A DNA stretch of 60,203 nucleotides, taken from positions 1-60,203 of IMG/VR virus record IMGVR_UViG_3300044624_002303; one strand, given 5' to 3'. Numbering within the stretch: the first letter of the stretch is position 1; every line of letters starts with the position of its first letter. This DNA is from a virus. The notes beneath the pieces are model-generated. The model had not been told where the DNA came from. It saw nothing but the letters and a program-made list of their open reading frames with translations, and did no database searches. The translations under genes and the position numbers were made by a program. This document shows, piece after piece, positions 7,758 through 18,399 of the stretch.

Positions 7758-7829
7758 TCGGGAATGCAGGGATCGAACCTGCGACTTTCTGCTCCCAAAG
7801 CAGACGCGCTACCGCTGCGCTAATTCCCG
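7758..7829 (-). tRNA. tRNA-Pro(UGG)
   Basis: Complete 72-nt cloverleaf: acceptor CGGGAAT/ATTCCCG, D-arm GCGC/GCGC, anticodon stem TCTGC/GCAGA with loop TTTGGGA (anticodon TGG after U33), T-arm GCAGG-TTCGATC-CCTGC, discriminator A. CCA is not encoded. One nucleotide separates it from the tRNA-like gene downstream, so they are probably co-transcribed from the minus strand. Confidence 0.95.
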
Positions 7830-7918
7830 GTGTTAGGGCAAGGATGTCCGCCTACGATGATCTACGATGCGGCCGAGGGGATCCTTTGTTTAATACAACG
7901 TTCCTTGTTGCACCCTGA

Positions 7919-7990
7919 TCGGTCGTGCTGGAATCGAACCAGCTTTCTCGTGCATTGTCTGCCCGTCCTTACCAATAGACTACCGACCGA
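7919..7990 (-). tRNA. tRNA-like gene, isotype uncertain, abnormal anticodon arm
   Basis: Acceptor TCGGTCG/CGACCGA, D-arm with TTGGTAA and T-arm GCTGG-TTCGATT-CCAGC are canonical, with D-arm sequence like Glu/Gln-type tRNAs. The anticodon arm can only form a stem with a G-A mismatch around loop AGACAAT, which lacks U33, or a 5-nt loop GACAA. It therefore cannot be given an anticodon. Like the first tRNA-like gene, it may be degenerate or non-decoding. Confidence 0.5.
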
Positions 7991-7993
7991 GTG

Positions 7994-8077
7994 ACCCCCT
8001 GGTTTGTGCATCATCCTGAAAACCATTTTGGTGACGTCAACAAAATGGTCTACGTATAGGAGCTAAGCATAGGGGGT
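7994..8077. repeat. nested inverted repeat, possible structured RNA
   Basis: ACCCCCT (7994-8000) pairs with AGGGGGT (8071-8077). Inside, ACCATTTTG (8022-8030) pairs perfectly with CAAAATGGT (8041-8049) around a 10-nt loop that itself contains the palindrome TGACGTCA. There is no T-tract, and no T-arm is present, so it is neither a standard terminator nor a tRNA. It could be a structured RNA on either strand. Confidence 0.5.
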
Positions 8078-12421: not shown

Positions 12422-12607
12422 ATGGACGTACACGTCGGCTTGGGTGAGTGGACTTACAGTCTCATGAGTCGCATGATGAATGCGATGGACGGGGATTGTT
12501 TTGTTCTGCCCACCCTCATGCATCTTCATGCGTACACAATCTTAAAAGAGGCCTCCTTCCCCGATCGGGACTTTAAAGTAGTAATCAAGAACTCCACAGA
12601 AGTATGA
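12422..12607 (+). CDS. small hypothetical protein upstream of the primase
   Basis: 61 residues beginning MDVHVGLGEWTYSLMSRM. Its stop overlaps the primase ATG (TATGA), which would couple them. An antisense ORF of 65 codons lies at 12332-12529, so the coding strand here is uncertain; gene direction on both sides favours plus. Confidence 0.45.
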   Translation: MDVHVGLGEWTYSLMSRMMNAMDGDCFVLPTLMHLHAYTILKEASFPDRDFKVVIKNSTEV

Positions 12608-15258
12608 CGAACCAGAATTTGAAAGCTCTTAAGCCAGGTGAAATCCGACTAGATTACATCCCACTTGATTGGCCCCTTACTCCCCTTGGACCCAACAAAG
12701 ATCCCTACATCCAGGGCTGGCAGAACAAACCATTCAGTGTTCGTGAAATTGAAGAGGAGCTGGCAACAGGTGACTGCCAAGCAATTGGGTTACTTGGTGG
12801 TCCTGCCTATAACCATCCCTATGGCTTGGTCTGGGTTGATGTTGATGGACCTAGTGTCTACCCACTCATTGAGCAAATCTCCGGCCTTCCCCTCCAAGAC
12901 GCGCTGCCTGCCACCCTTACCATCTTCAGTGGTAAAGTCGGCCGCGAACGGAAGCTCTACAAATTAAACCGCGATAAACACAAGCATTTCCTACGCAACA
13001 AGTACACCTGGCACGGGGAAGAAAACAAAGAAAAGCTTGAGATCCTTTGGAAAAAGCACCAAGGTGTTTTGATGGGTGTTCATCCAGAGACGGATGGATA
13101 CTACACCGGTGAAGAGCTGGGATTTGAGTGGTCCGACAACCTGCCTGAACTGCCGGAATGGATCCTCAATAACATCATCACCAAAAATGCCAAGCAAGGT
13201 AAGCCTGCCCAAGAAGTATCACGTGTGATCGGCGGGAACTTCGCCATCCAAAGTGTCGTTGGGTTGGATCGTGATATCCAACTTGCGTCCGAAGCAATGT
13301 GGGGTATGCCTCCAGAAGCGACGGATGACTATGACATCTGGATCATGGTTGGTCAGTCGCTCCATAGCTTGGATGAATCGCTGCTGGATGAATGGGATGA
13401 ATGGTCCAAGCAAAGCGATAAGTACAAAGATGGTGAATGCCACAGGCGTTGGCTCTCCTTCAGTAAAGGTGGTGGTCGTGGTATTGGCTCACTAATCCAT
13501 ATTGCCCAAGAAAATGGATGGAAGCCATCACAGGACTATCGCGTACAAAGCGTTGATGACGCAACACTAGAGGCAATTGCTTCAATCTTACCCAACCTTG
13601 AAGGCGACACATTAGAGCACATGGAAAGAGTATTAGCGCAAAATGCGGAAACACTTCAAACATCTAAGAATCCTGTAAAAACAAAACCATCAACGCGCAG
13701 CAGGAAAAAAGAAACGGATGGAGAAGAACCTAAGGATGCCAGGGGGCACAACAGACCATCTCATGAGATAGCTGATCAATTGCTTGTTGCGTACGCAGGT
13801 GATTTGTTGTTTAGTCAGCCCCACAACCAGTTCTTTCTCTATGACAAGAGGAAGGGTCTATGGGAGAAAAAGACCAAGATCGAGATGTATGGCAGCATCA
13901 GGGATAACCTGAAAGATCTTGCTGCTTCTGGTTGGTTGCCCAGGGGGTTTAACCACAACCTGATGGAGGACATGTACAAGCAGCTCCAAGCGTTGGTGCC
14001 ATTTGATGACTGGTATGACGAAACGGACTACCTGCTCTTTACCAATGGTTTGTTAGATGTTGGTACCAGGGAATTGCTTCCCTTCCAGCGAGAACTACAT
14101 GTAACGCAACAGATGCCGTATGAATATGATCCATCGGCTACCTGTGAAGAAATTATTAAATGGCTGAAGCATACGCAACACAATTCGTGGAATCGCACTC
14201 AAGTGCTGAGGGCATGGCTCAGGGCAACACTGCTTGGTAACTACGAAATCCAGAAGTTCTTGGAGATTGTGGGTCCAGGTAAGTCAGGTAAGTCCACCTA
14301 CGCAAACCTCGCCGTGGCATTGGTAGGACGCAGTAATACCTATTCCACAGACTTTGAGAACATGGAGAAAAACAGGTTTGAAGCAGCGGCCTATATGGGT
14401 AAAAAGCTCCTCCTGTTCCAGGATGCTGATCGTTGGGGTGGTTCCGTATCCAGGCTAAAAGCAATCACCGGTAATGACTGGATTCGTTCTGAGCGCAAGT
14501 ACCAAGGGGAAGCATTAGATCCATTTCAGTACCATGGGATGGTCATCATCACAGCTAATGAAGCTATTCAGTCCACCGACTATACTTCTGGTCTGGCTCG
14601 TCGCCGTCTCACCATTCCGTTTGACCGTCCATTTATGGGTGGACAAGCAGAACAAAAAGAGCTGATCAAGTTTGATAACAAAGGAAATCCAGAAGGTGAG
14701 TTTGCGTCTCTGCTACCAGGGCTTGTGAACTGGCTGCTGGATATGCCGGAAGCTGACATGCGTTCTTACCTCATGGAAACCGCACAACATGTGGACTTCT
14801 TCCAGAAGTATGAGAAGGAGCAAAGCCTGCGTTCCAACCCACTGTTGGATTGGATGAGCCAGCATCTTGTTTATGATCCGGGCATGTTCTCGTACGTTGG
14901 TACTTGCAAGAATGCTATGGGGTCAAGCAACTTCTACCAAGAATGGGAAAGATGGTTGTACCCAAGCTATGCAGAGTTCTGCCGTAGCTGTAATGTTGGC
15001 TTTGTGGGACGTGCTCGATTTGAAGTGCTGTTTTTTGATATCTGTAAGCACCAGCTCAAACTCAATGTTTTCAACAGGAAAACAAATGTTGGCTTGCAAG
15101 TGTTTAACGTCATCGTTAGGGGTTCAAACGCTAAGTACAAAGACTATCCTTCCGTTGTTGAAGTAGCAGCTAACCCGCAGGAATTTATCCAGCTATACGG
15201 AGTGGACATTAGTGCGCCTACCAATGCGACAATGGAGAATATTGCGGAAGTCATGTGA
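12604..15258 (+). CDS. primase-helicase (PrimPol-like / D5-type SF3 helicase)
   Basis: 884 residues. The N-terminal part (to about 200) looks like an AEP/bifunctional primase-polymerase: VWVDVDG near residue 76 is the hhhDhD metal-binding motif. Residues about 225-290 (YDIWIMVGQSLHSL...WDEWSKQSDKY) match PriCT-type linkers. The C-terminal half is a phage/plasmid P4-D5 type SF3 helicase with Walker A GPGKSGKST near residue 557, LLLFQDADRW as Walker B, and a conserved arginine region (GLARRRLTIPF). It would unwind the origin and prime replication. GTGA overlap with speD. Confidence 0.9.
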   Translation: MTNQNLKALKPGEIRLDYIPLDWPLTPLGPNKDPYIQGWQNKPFSVREIEEELATGDCQAIGLLGGPAYNHPYGLVWVDVDGPSVYPLIEQISGLPLQDALPATLTIFSGKVGRERKLYKLNRDKHKHFLRNKYTWHGEENKEKLEILWKKHQGVLMGVHPETDGYYTGEELGFEWSDNLPELPEWILNNIITKNAKQGKPAQEVSRVIGGNFAIQSVVGLDRDIQLASEAMWGMPPEATDDYDIWIMVGQSLHSLDESLLDEWDEWSKQSDKYKDGECHRRWLSFSKGGGRGIGSLIHIAQENGWKPSQDYRVQSVDDATLEAIASILPNLEGDTLEHMERVLAQNAETLQTSKNPVKTKPSTRSRKKETDGEEPKDARGHNRPSHEIADQLLVAYAGDLLFSQPHNQFFLYDKRKGLWEKKTKIEMYGSIRDNLKDLAASGWLPRGFNHNLMEDMYKQLQALVPFDDWYDETDYLLFTNGLLDVGTRELLPFQRELHVTQQMPYEYDPSATCEEIIKWLKHTQHNSWNRTQVLRAWLRATLLGNYEIQKFLEIVGPGKSGKSTYANLAVALVGRSNTYSTDFENMEKNRFEAAAYMGKKLLLFQDADRWGGSVSRLKAITGNDWIRSERKYQGEALDPFQYHGMVIITANEAIQSTDYTSGLARRRLTIPFDRPFMGGQAEQKELIKFDNKGNPEGEFASLLPGLVNWLLDMPEADMRSYLMETAQHVDFFQKYEKEQSLRSNPLLDWMSQHLVYDPGMFSYVGTCKNAMGSSNFYQEWERWLYPSYAEFCRSCNVGFVGRARFEVLFFDICKHQLKLNVFNRKTNVGLQVFNVIVRGSNAKYKDYPSVVEVAANPQEFIQLYGVDISAPTNATMENIAEVM

Positions 15259-15605
15259 GCAATGGCCGGCACCTGATCCTAGATCTTTATGGTTGTACCA
15301 GGGAGTCTCTGGATGATTATCAATACCTAGAGCAAATGCTCCAGACTGCAGTACGTATGTCTGGAGCAACCCTTTTGCGTATTACAGGCCATAAATTTGA
15401 GCCGGAGGGGGTTACTATTCTTGCTTTATTGGCTGAATCACACGCCAGTATACACACATGGCCATCACAAAAATATGCCGCCGTTGACTTGTATACATGC
15501 AACCCAGATGGTATAAAGGCGCAAAAAGCTGCAGATTTTATTAAACACAAACTACAAGCTCAAGATATTGAAGAGCAAGAAATAGAACGCAAGGTCCAAA
15601 AATAA
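15255..15605 (+). CDS. speD: S-adenosylmethionine decarboxylase
   Basis: 116 residues, the usual length for class 1b bacterial AdoMetDC. The self-cleavage site is present as ESHASIHTWP: S62 would become the pyruvoyl group, with H67 and C82 matching the catalytic residues of the Thermotoga enzyme (S63, H68, C83). It makes decarboxylated SAM for spermidine synthesis; cyanophages are known to carry speD. GTG start overlapping the primase stop (GTGA). Confidence 0.9.
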   Translation: MSNGRHLILDLYGCTRESLDDYQYLEQMLQTAVRMSGATLLRITGHKFEPEGVTILALLAESHASIHTWPSQKYAAVDLYTCNPDGIKAQKAADFIKHKLQAQDIEEQEIERKVQK

Positions 15606-15670: not shown

Positions 15671-16342
15671 ATGGACATCCTACCTGGTTTTAAGCTCTGC
15701 CGCAAAGGCTTGCATCAATACAAGCCAAGTGGTAATGGACGCGGCTGCCCTGAATGCATAAAAGCGTACGCACGAAACAAATACCAATCAGACCCTGTGT
15801 ACCGCAGTAAACGAATAGCAAGTGCACGAGAACAAGAACAAAAAAACCAAGAAAAATGTAACGAAAGAAAACGAAACAAATATAACAACGATCCGGTATT
15901 TAGAGAAAAACGCAAACAACAAATCAACAAACAAAAACGTCAACTCTGGCAAGAAAACTCTGTATGGAAAGAACGCAAAAAGGAACAAACAAAAAATTGG
16001 GTGCGTAATAATCAAGGCAAAAGAAACTACTACGAAAAACTAAAAAAGGCAAAAAGAAAACAATGCATCGCAGGTTGGGCAGACAAAAGAAAAATAAAAG
16101 AGTTTTACCAAGAAGCTTTTTGTTTATCCTCTCAGGGTGGCCTTAAGTACCAAGTTGATCACATTTATCCTTTGGTGTCACATTTTTTGTGTGGTTTACA
16201 TGTAGAAACAAATTTACAAATTTTAACAGCCCAAGAAAACGCATCAAAGGGTAATCGTAAATGGCCCGGTCAACTCGACTGCCAAAAGGGCTCAGTTTAC
16301 GATATATTTCCTAAAGAACTCACGGATCTCCTAGATGACTAA
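15671..16342 (+). CDS. HNH homing-type endonuclease
   Basis: 223 residues. An N-terminal zinc knuckle (CRKGLH...CPEC) is followed by a long Lys/Asn/Arg-rich, A-rich-coded segment (residues about 45-140). A C-terminal HNH core reads YQVDHIYPL, GLHVETNLQIL and NASKGNRKW. The Lys/Asn-rich middle has a base composition unlike the neighbours, a sign of recent acquisition. It sits between speD and the glycosyltransferase and overlaps the latter by 8 nt. Confidence 0.8.
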   Translation: MDILPGFKLCRKGLHQYKPSGNGRGCPECIKAYARNKYQSDPVYRSKRIASAREQEQKNQEKCNERKRNKYNNDPVFREKRKQQINKQKRQLWQENSVWKERKKEQTKNWVRNNQGKRNYYEKLKKAKRKQCIAGWADKRKIKEFYQEAFCLSSQGGLKYQVDHIYPLVSHFLCGLHVETNLQILTAQENASKGNRKWPGQLDCQKGSVYDIFPKELTDLLDD

Positions 16343-17612
16343 AAAGACTAAAGTGCTTTGGGTTGCAGATTTTGCAGCAATGACAGGGTTTGGTCGTGTA
16401 TCAAGTGGCGTGCTGCCGCGTTTAAAAGACGATTTTGAATTTATTGTCTTGGCTTGTAACTGGCATGGAGATCCTACGCCAGAACAAAAAGACTTCAAAA
16501 TGTATCCGGCATCTAATCGTTTTCAACAAGCGCCATTTGGTGAACAACGTATTCGTGAGATTGTTGAGCGTGAACAACCAGACATCGTGTTTAGCCTCAA
16601 CGATCCTTGGATCGTAAGTGAACAATACCGACAAATCGAAGACCTACATAAAGCCGGTAATTTTAAATTTGTCGGCTATCTCACAATGGATAGTTACAAC
16701 TGGATTGGAGGCATTGATCCACACATCAACGCTTGGGATGCGGTAGTTGCTTTTACAGAGTTTGGTGCTTATGAATTTGCAAAAGCAGGTATTAATCGAC
16801 CAATTGCTGTCATTCCACATGGAATTGATTGCAACTTGTTCTATCCAGTTGATCGTGATGAATGCCGCCGCAAGCTTGGATTAGAAAAAGATTTGTTTAT
16901 TGTTTTTAACGGAAACAGAAATCAATTCCGGAAACGGATTGATATTACAATCCAAGGTTTTGCCAAGTTTGCAGTTGGCAAGCCGGAAACCAAGCTTTAT
17001 CTCCATATGGGCCTGAAAGATCAAGGGTGGGACGTAATGGGTATATTTGCCAGGGAAATGTCCAAAGTTGGTTTGGACCCAAACAATCGCATCATTATGA
17101 CTACGCAGACGGATGGCCCTCCAAACGTATCGGTAGAAATGCTCAACACCATCTACAACGCATGTGATGTAGGCGTTAATACAACCAAAGGGGGTGGTTG
17201 GGAGCTTGTCAACTTTGAACACGCTGCCTGTGGTGTGCCGCAGGTAGTGCCTGACCATACGTCATGCAAAGAGATTTTTGAGGGCTATGGCGAACTGATC
17301 CGTTGTGACCACATCGATGTGGACACCAACTACGCACGTGAGATGCCATGCCCGTCCTCTGACCACCTTGCTGAGATCTTGGAGTACCTGTACCAAGACA
17401 AAGGCATTCGTGAATGGGTTGGCACACGCTGCCGGGAACGTGTGATGGATCCACAGTTCTCATGGGACACAGTTGCGTCTCAATTTGGCGGCATCTTTGA
17501 GGATGTCATGAACCAGGTTGATCATTCAGTCCCGGTTGAGATCAGTGAGAAGCCACGGAAACGGAAGAAAAGCCGGACTCTGCGGAAAGAGATGGCAGCC
17601 GCTGTAAGCTAA
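16335..17612 (+). CDS. glycosyltransferase family 4 protein
   Basis: 425 residues with a GT-B layout: N-terminal ADFAAMTGFGRVSSG, mid-protein VIPHGIDCNLFYP (nucleotide-sugar domain entry), and GWELVNFEHAACGVPQVV with the E-x7-E-type motif of GT4 retaining transferases. The C-terminus is basic (KPRKRKKSRTLRK). It probably transfers a hexose to phage DNA, virion or host surface glycan; the acceptor cannot be told. Followed by a strong terminator. Confidence 0.85.
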   Translation: MTKKTKVLWVADFAAMTGFGRVSSGVLPRLKDDFEFIVLACNWHGDPTPEQKDFKMYPASNRFQQAPFGEQRIREIVEREQPDIVFSLNDPWIVSEQYRQIEDLHKAGNFKFVGYLTMDSYNWIGGIDPHINAWDAVVAFTEFGAYEFAKAGINRPIAVIPHGIDCNLFYPVDRDECRRKLGLEKDLFIVFNGNRNQFRKRIDITIQGFAKFAVGKPETKLYLHMGLKDQGWDVMGIFAREMSKVGLDPNNRIIMTTQTDGPPNVSVEMLNTIYNACDVGVNTTKGGGWELVNFEHAACGVPQVVPDHTSCKEIFEGYGELIRCDHIDVDTNYAREMPCPSSDHLAEILEYLYQDKGIREWVGTRCRERVMDPQFSWDTVASQFGGIFEDVMNQVDHSVPVEISEKPRKRKKSRTLRKEMAAAVS

Positions 17613-17631: not shown

Positions 17632-17658
17632 GCCTCTGCATCTAGCAGGGGCTTTTTT
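17632..17658 (+). terminator. rho-independent terminator
   Basis: GCCTCTGC and GCAGGGGC form an 8-bp stem (one G-T) around ATCTA, followed by TTTTTT. It ends the 11.3-17.6 kb plus-strand operon. Confidence 0.9.
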
Positions 17659-17742
17659 GTGTCCACAAGAAGGTATGTGCGGCAAGTGAGGGAGTCAACC
17701 GCCTTGTATAAGGGAGACTACCCCCGTATTTACCATAAGGAA

Positions 17743-17860
17743 GTCGTGAGCAGTTTTTGTCGGAAAGTGTCTCTAATGAGAATGGCTCTCAGTATTAAGT
17801 GAGACGCAAATGAGACAAAACTAAGAAGTGAGACACTTTTCAAGAAAAACAGCTCACGAC
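17743..17860. repeat. 31-bp inverted repeat around a 56-nt loop
   Basis: GTCGTGAGC (17743-17751) pairs with GCTCACGAC (17852-17860) and AAAGTGTCTC (17764-17773) with GAGACACTTT (17830-17839). The 12-nt middle segments, with T5 opposite A5, pair with a few mismatches. The loop contains a smaller hairpin, TGAGA-ATGGC-TCTCA (17777-17791). It is a candidate structured RNA, origin or recombination site, not a simple terminator. Confidence 0.7.
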
Positions 17861-17967
17861 TCTAATATAGTAAATAAGTATGTAGACACCTTTAAATACC
17901 CCGCCACTACAGGTTTCTACCTGGGTAACGGTGTATACTTTCCTTGTTCAGCACCTCTCTATCCCTA

Positions 17968-18399
17968 GTGGCACGCACTTATCACGAAATGCCGCCCCTG
18001 TGGTGGCTACAAGAGCACCTAGAACTCACCTCTGACTACCTTTCCGGTCTCAAGTGGAAGACAGCCGGCCGCCTTCATGAACCCGGTGATCAAGCTGGAG
18101 TACTTCGCCCTGACGGCAGGTTCTATACCATCTCCTTGCTGGGTACAAAATATCCAGCGCATCGAGTGGTGTACTACTTGCGTACTGGTACAAATCCGGA
18201 GAATGCAGACGTACTACACGATAAGGACAACAACGCTCGTGACAACCGCCTAAAGCTGACCCTGTATCAACGCAGAACACTTCCTGCACCCAGGTACCGT
18301 CGCCGTGTCAGGAATGAAGAAGGCAACCTTGTTTTCAGAGATCCATACACCAACTACTCCTTTGTTTCCAAAAACCCAACTGAGACTCAACATGGCTGA
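17968..18399 (+). CDS. HNH endonuclease (HNH_3 type)
   Basis: 143 residues from GTG 17968; the frame is open from a TTG at 17944. PAHRVVYYLRTGTNPENADVLHDKDNN followed by ARDNRLKL is the HNH_3 core, closely like that of the HNH/AP2 protein at 5736-6293 but without the AP2 domain. The 3' end overlaps the next gene by 8 nt. A free-standing nuclease. Confidence 0.8.
   Translation: MARTYHEMPPLWWLQEHLELTSDYLSGLKWKTAGRLHEPGDQAGVLRPDGRFYTISLLGTKYPAHRVVYYLRTGTNPENADVLHDKDNNARDNRLKLTLYQRRTLPAPRYRRRVRNEEGNLVFRDPYTNYSFVSKNPTETQHG

Follow-up and report, generated by a model that had tools for sequence, protein, structure and literature searches.

Genomic context

The window, i.e. the whole stretch of 60,203 nucleotides analysed here, belongs to the lineage of the freshwater Synechococcus phage S-EIV1, with which it shares a primase that is 56% identical over 98% of the sequence. 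Since relatives in this lineage are about 80 kb long, the window is probably a fragment. The region of interest is an intergenic segment between a glycosyltransferase gene and an HNH endonuclease gene, on the distal side of a small group of genes that begins with that of a primase-helicase (Table 1). The S-adenosylmethionine decarboxylase gene (AdoMetDC), which overlaps the primase stop codon, stays beside the primase gene in most relatives. The distance between the palindrome described below and the primase gene is 1.3-3.3 kb in most loci. The upstream terminator that an earlier note, made from the sequence alone, had placed at 17632 is indeed present and belongs to the glycosyltransferase gene; similar hairpins occupy the same place in relatives.

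The immediate surroundings vary among loci. In L127, L130, L147 and L128, and also in L078, an extra ORF with a cupin/sugar-phosphate isomerase-like reading lies between the glycosyltransferase gene and the palindrome region, in the 350-600 nt that follow the stop codon of the former. Elsewhere in the window, a tRNA-Pro (7758-7829) and, more weakly, a tRNA-Cys with anticodon aca (7917-7990) are predicted on the minus strand; the first alone reaches the Rfam cut-off.

Table 1. Coordinates of the genes and structural features of the locus in the window
Feature	Position	Strand	Remarks
Primase-helicase gene, proposed initiator	12604..15258	+	Prim-Pol + PriCT_2 + D5_N + DUF5906 (SF3-type helicase) + C-terminal winged helix (residues ~745-873)
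S-adenosylmethionine decarboxylase gene	15255..15605	+	Pfam AdoMet_dc, 2e-36; between primase and palindrome
Endonuclease VII-like gene	15671..16342	+	PHROG 1035; missing from some relatives
Glycosyltransferase gene	16335..17612	+	PHROG 2170; directly upstream of palindrome
Intrinsic terminator of the glycosyltransferase gene	17632..17658	+	GCCTCTGC-ATCTA-GCAGGGGC-T6; separate from palindrome
Imperfect palindrome, left arm, 65 nt	17709..17773	.	Pairing and two-sided changes in relatives
Inner left arm (earlier note)	17743..17773	.	Terminates in AAAGTGTCTC (17764-17773)
Central loop (56 nt)	17774..17829	.	TGAGAatggcTCTCA at 17777-17791; TGAGAC boxes at 17800, 17811 and 17829
Imperfect palindrome, right arm, 65 nt	17830..17894	.	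Pairing and two-sided changes in relatives
Inner right arm (earlier note)	17830..17860	.	Begins with GAGACACTTT
Least stable duplex, AT-rich	17860..17900	.	TAATATAGTAAATAAG; z ~ +3 versus genome; candidate unwinding element, right arm
HNH endonuclease gene	17968..18399	+	GTG start; downstream; optional neighbour

A long imperfect palindrome

The earlier note described a 31-bp imperfect inverted repeat in this intergenic region, with a loop of 56 nt. The repeat is real, with 27 of its 31 positions matching, and the perfect runs of 9 bp at the outer end and 10 bp at the inner end are as described, as is the exact length of the loop. The middle 12 bp, said to be nearly perfect, do match for the most part, but at 8 of 12 positions they fall somewhat short of that description. 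The full length of the structure was understated: it is an imperfect palindrome with arms of 65 nt that are 75% complementary. The loop contains the reported TGAGA/TCTCA mini-hairpin (17777-17781 and 17787-17791) and the GTGAGAC-type repeats, represented by TGAGAC boxes of which the last overlaps the arm, and no T-tract follows the inverted repeat on its 3' side. The arms also share the words AAAGTGT/ACACTTT (at 17764 and 17833), other copies of which are few in the window.

A chance origin of the palindrome is excluded by shuffling. Its ungapped score is 25, compared with 11-15.5 for the best palindrome in each of eight shuffled genomes, and its gapped score is 63.1, whereas 2000 shuffles of the intergenic region that preserve dinucleotides gave 16.4 +/- 3.6 and never more than 35.1. 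It is the top-scoring palindrome of the 60-kb window, in which the runner-up reaches 36.7. The corresponding palindrome ranks first in all six genomes scanned, with best and next scores of 63 and 37, 134 and 37, 56 and 35, 74 and 52, 58 and 34, and 54 and 35.

Conservation of position and pairing

IMG/VR scans in which the glycosyltransferase and the primase served as queries yielded 155 further loci, and removal of near-duplicates left 71 non-redundant glycosyltransferase-downstream regions. A palindromic score of at least 39 was obtained in 58 of these 71 regions, compared with at most 30 for shuffled sequences and at most 29.5 for control windows of the same loci. With the addition of L099, in which the palindrome is displaced, a long palindrome is found in 59 of the 71 non-redundant relatives. 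The remaining 12 regions are below the score threshold and a long palindrome was not found in them at any position, some of them seemingly carrying a reduced form. The arms measure 65-115 nt and exceed 100 nt in some relatives. The palindrome sequences range from near-identical to unrelated and are usually quite different from that of the window: it is the structure that is conserved and not the sequence, as in the pRN1-type origin. A DNA search of annotated phages with the palindrome region gave no match.

The earlier note had proposed conservation of pairing as the test on which its own reading should stand or fall. When the window is aligned with eight of its near relatives, pairing proves to be conserved and compensatory changes are present: two-sided changes occur in 30 of the 65 arm pairs, and 69 cells are compensatory, compared with 32 +/- 4 in shuffled alignments (0 of 500 shuffles as high). 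Covariation between the arms is 0.330, and at most 0.150 when the partners are slid. Columns of the loop are conserved in this alignment too, namely TGAGAA, CTCTC and GAGAC-type columns.

Weak duplex, word content and a second dyad

In 50 of 58 loci, the right arm, which is the one farther from the glycosyltransferase gene, contains the weakest 30-nt stretch of duplex, often CTTATATAAAGATAAAA-like in sequence. The most enriched words of the palindromes are of the TGACACTTT type. This enrichment and the locus L120 suggested an iteron array as a general design, a possibility that was rejected: most loci are not above chance, repeated 7-mers within a half-region reaching p<0.05 in 7 of 116 halves, which is about the chance level. 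L120 itself is a clear exception, few other loci being above chance, and 7 of the 9 ATGACACTTT copies of this locus are inside the palindrome; its array is situated about 130-410 nt 3' of the glycosyltransferase stop.

A second and shorter dyad, GTCTCA-N(0-4)-TGAGAC (with C/T or A/G permitted at one position per half), occurs in 25 of the 71 glycosyltransferase-downstream regions, to be compared with a total of 34 copies over the whole 1.2 Mb of loci. It lies in the palindrome loop in some loci and outside the palindrome in others; in the S-EIV1 record it is found at 7998. In S-EIV1 (L002), an extra copy of the palindrome's ATCTTACATATCCACTT word coincides with a promoter-like TATAAT some 340-360 nt beyond the glycosyltransferase stop codon, immediately 5' of the next gene.

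The putative initiator

Pfam assigns Prim-Pol, PriCT_2, D5_N and DUF5906 domains to the primase. An AlphaFold model of its last 143 residues, based on an alignment of the window protein with those of the fetched loci (the S-EIV1 row being left out), has a mean pLDDT of 85.9. The top match of this model in a Foldseek search of the PDB is 1ka8, the origin-binding domain of phage P4 (probability 1.00, TM 0.67 on the target, 21% identity, E 0.006), and phage primases and helicases are among its hits in a set of viral models. A profile search of PDB sequences with the primase C-terminus found nothing, so that fold comparison, at a modest E-value, is the basis of the P4 match. The protein has the make-up of pRN1-type initiators, namely a prim-pol, an SF3 helicase and a C-terminal winged helix, the last of these being taken from the model.

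The similarity of palindromes between loci tracks that of the SF3 domain of the primase (rho 0.43) more closely than that of the flanking genes, glycosyltransferase (0.17) and endo2 (0.23), and the partial correlation of SF3 domain and palindrome is 0.37 (p ~0.001). The correlation is almost as strong (0.39) for the AdoMetDC gene beside the primase. Because the co-variation is driven by close relatives, is lost when only distant pairs are considered, and is shared by AdoMetDC, it is taken as supporting evidence only.

Alternative explanations

Besides a replication origin, the earlier note had listed a structured RNA and a recombination or attachment site. A small RNA or a 3' UTR element issued from the intergenic region would be in keeping with the strong fold predicted for the palindrome region on either strand and with the covariation of the arms. 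An RNA stem tolerates G·U and rejects A·C on its own strand. Among the arm mismatches of 53 loci, however, G·T and A·C are equally common (339 versus 343, p = 0.91), with no bias on the transcribed strand, so that a constraint on the DNA is the best reading of the symmetry. The palindrome has no match in Rfam, whose only hit in the window is a tRNA elsewhere, and the terminator lies upstream of it; a function as RNA appears very improbable. We consider it at least as improbable that the palindrome serves a site-specific integrase for attachment or recombination, or that it forms an invertible segment. Its inverted repeat with an asymmetric centre has the expected appearance, but tyrosine integrases (PF00589) are present in only 2 of 19 genomes and in neither the window nor S-EIV1, while serine recombinases or resolvases are found in none of the 19. 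Moreover, the loop centre keeps a single orientation in the close relatives aligned, and the exact arm pattern is absent from a collection of bacterial and archaeal genomes. Equally little weight is given to a packaging (pac/cos) site or to a target tied to the adjacent nuclease. The HNH gene does lie directly downstream in the window, but at least 10 loci with the palindrome, S-EIV1 among them, lack this gene, and in L099 it lies on the opposite side of the palindrome, which it displaces; in the window, some 30 kb separate the palindrome from the large terminase gene. An HNH-linked element was rejected because the palindrome persists where the HNH gene is absent.

Some weight, although still a small one, must be given to another kind of DNA dyad, such as a replication terminus or fork trap, a dimer-resolution or partition site, or the operator of a phage regulator: in short, a site that a dimeric protein would bind, close to the convergence of the two halves of the transcription map. 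DNA-level symmetry without RNA bias would be expected of such a site, and the second dyad is concentrated in the same intergenic region. Genes on both sides point to a spot about 3 kb beyond the palindrome, and the S-EIV1 gene map converges about 3.5 kb away from it; a terminus or some different DNA site would be equally in keeping with this convergence. The GC-skew profile, suggested earlier as a check of the origin proposal, gave no signature of an origin: in the five genomes studied (S-EIV1 and four long metagenomic relatives), cumulative skew has no extremum, and in particular no minimum, at the palindrome, bearing in mind that phage skew also follows gene direction. GC and TA skew were consequently discarded as origin markers for lack of usable signal, TA skew following gene direction. 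On the other hand, arms of this length far exceed ordinary operators, and a serine recombinase is found in none of the 19 genomes. Neither the polar AT-rich stretch nor the association with the primase over the flanking genes is predicted by a dyad of this kind.

A predicted replication origin

We propose that the palindrome is probably the DNA replication origin (ori) of the S-EIV1-like cyanophage lineage, served by the prim-pol/SF3 initiator. It occupies a conserved position, its pairing is maintained by compensatory changes under a DNA-level constraint, it is the one outstanding site of each scanned genome, and it is accompanied by a polar region of weak duplex and by a protein with the domain make-up of an initiator. 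Of the three possibilities raised in the earlier note, the origin is the best supported, although GC skew lends it no support. Other points that speak against an origin are the convergence of genes beyond the palindrome, its distance from the primase gene, the general lack of iterons, the 12 regions below the score threshold, and the irregular occurrence of palindromes near the primases of other phages.

The primase-helicase would use its P4-type origin-binding domain to recognise both inverted arms and would assemble on the dyad as helicase hexamers, perhaps aided by the extrusion of the long arms as a cruciform when the DNA is supercoiled. The AT-rich stretch of the right arm would then be melted by the same protein, and its Prim-Pol domain would lay the first primers for the phage DNA polymerase, which in S-EIV1 is of family A; replication would accordingly start at the palindrome. 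A limited search of the literature found no described origin for the S-EIV1 lineage of freshwater cyanophages. The combination of a single precise candidate site and a named initiator makes the start of replication directly testable.

A bolder version of this proposal, possible but doubtful, is that the origin is recognised by its shape and not through fixed binding sites: a cruciform of 65-115 bp, selected for pairing alone while its sequence turns over, would load the prim-pol/SF3 initiator. If true, this would define a widespread class of iteron-less origins in double-stranded DNA phages, resting on a principle common to the archaeal pRN plasmids, in which the site may lie kilobases from the initiator gene.

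Comparison with known systems

The crenarchaeal plasmid pRN1 carries a 100-bp stem-loop (21-nt stem and 58-nt loop) downstream of its initiator gene (PMC4234260). This stem-loop is essential and still functions at another location, and its shape is conserved while its sequence is not (PMC4234260, PMC3869888). The same type of origin was proposed by the pRN1 authors for the Bordetella phage BIP-1 (PMC4234260). The cyanophage palindrome seems to resemble the pRN1 origin in its working and is a candidate member of this type. Both systems have an initiator composed of a prim-pol, an SF3 helicase and a winged helix, a single large downstream stem-loop (with a 31-nt inner stem and a 56-nt loop in the window), structure that is kept while sequence is not, and a general absence of iterons. 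They differ in that the cyanophage arms are longer (65 nt, and more in some relatives) and in that the palindrome is one to three genes away from the initiator gene instead of directly 3' of it. An AT-rich stretch in the right arm of most relatives is a further difference, as are the cyanobacterial hosts of the S-EIV1 lineage and the middle domain of the primase, which is PriCT_2, as in BIP-1, and not pRN1_helical. The idea of a stem-loop origin, until now confined to a plasmid family and one phage group, would thereby come to cover dozens of phage genomes, in which DNA-level pairing has statistical backing.

Other origins share part of this arrangement. In the Streptococcus thermophilus phages Sfi21 and Sfi11, a palindromic noncoding region adjoins the gene of a D5-type primase. 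For Sfi11, the putative rep_origin annotated just 3' of this gene reaches 75.6 in the palindrome test used here; its counterpart in Sfi21 has been reported to function as an independent replication origin (PMC6356513). Unlike the cyanophage palindrome, the Sfi11 origin abuts the primase gene on its 3' side and has a central AT-rich tract, and its DNA polymerase/primase and D5-type protein are encoded by separate genes. Origins of the PICI/SaPI elements also lie 3' of a primase-initiator gene and have initiator sites adjoining an AT-rich region; however, two iteron sets flank the AT-rich region of PICIs (PMC6092414), whereas iterons are not general in the cyanophage lineage. The origin-binding winged helix of the phage P4 alpha protein is the closest solved fold to the cyanophage primase C-terminus, but alpha has a Toprim-type primase and the P4 origin (ori/crr) contains protein-bound repeats (PMC4234260).

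Not every other phage has a palindrome near its primase: the Paenibacillus phage LincolnB and the satellite Javan586 do, and several other phages do not. Some phages carry palindromes elsewhere as well. The Morganella phage Henu15 (L180) has a strong palindrome (score 82.9) about 4.7 kb after a primase-like gene and not adjacent to it, and the Enterococcus phage IME-EF4 (L185) has one (score 98.8) that does not adjoin the primase gene and is located at the start of the locus.
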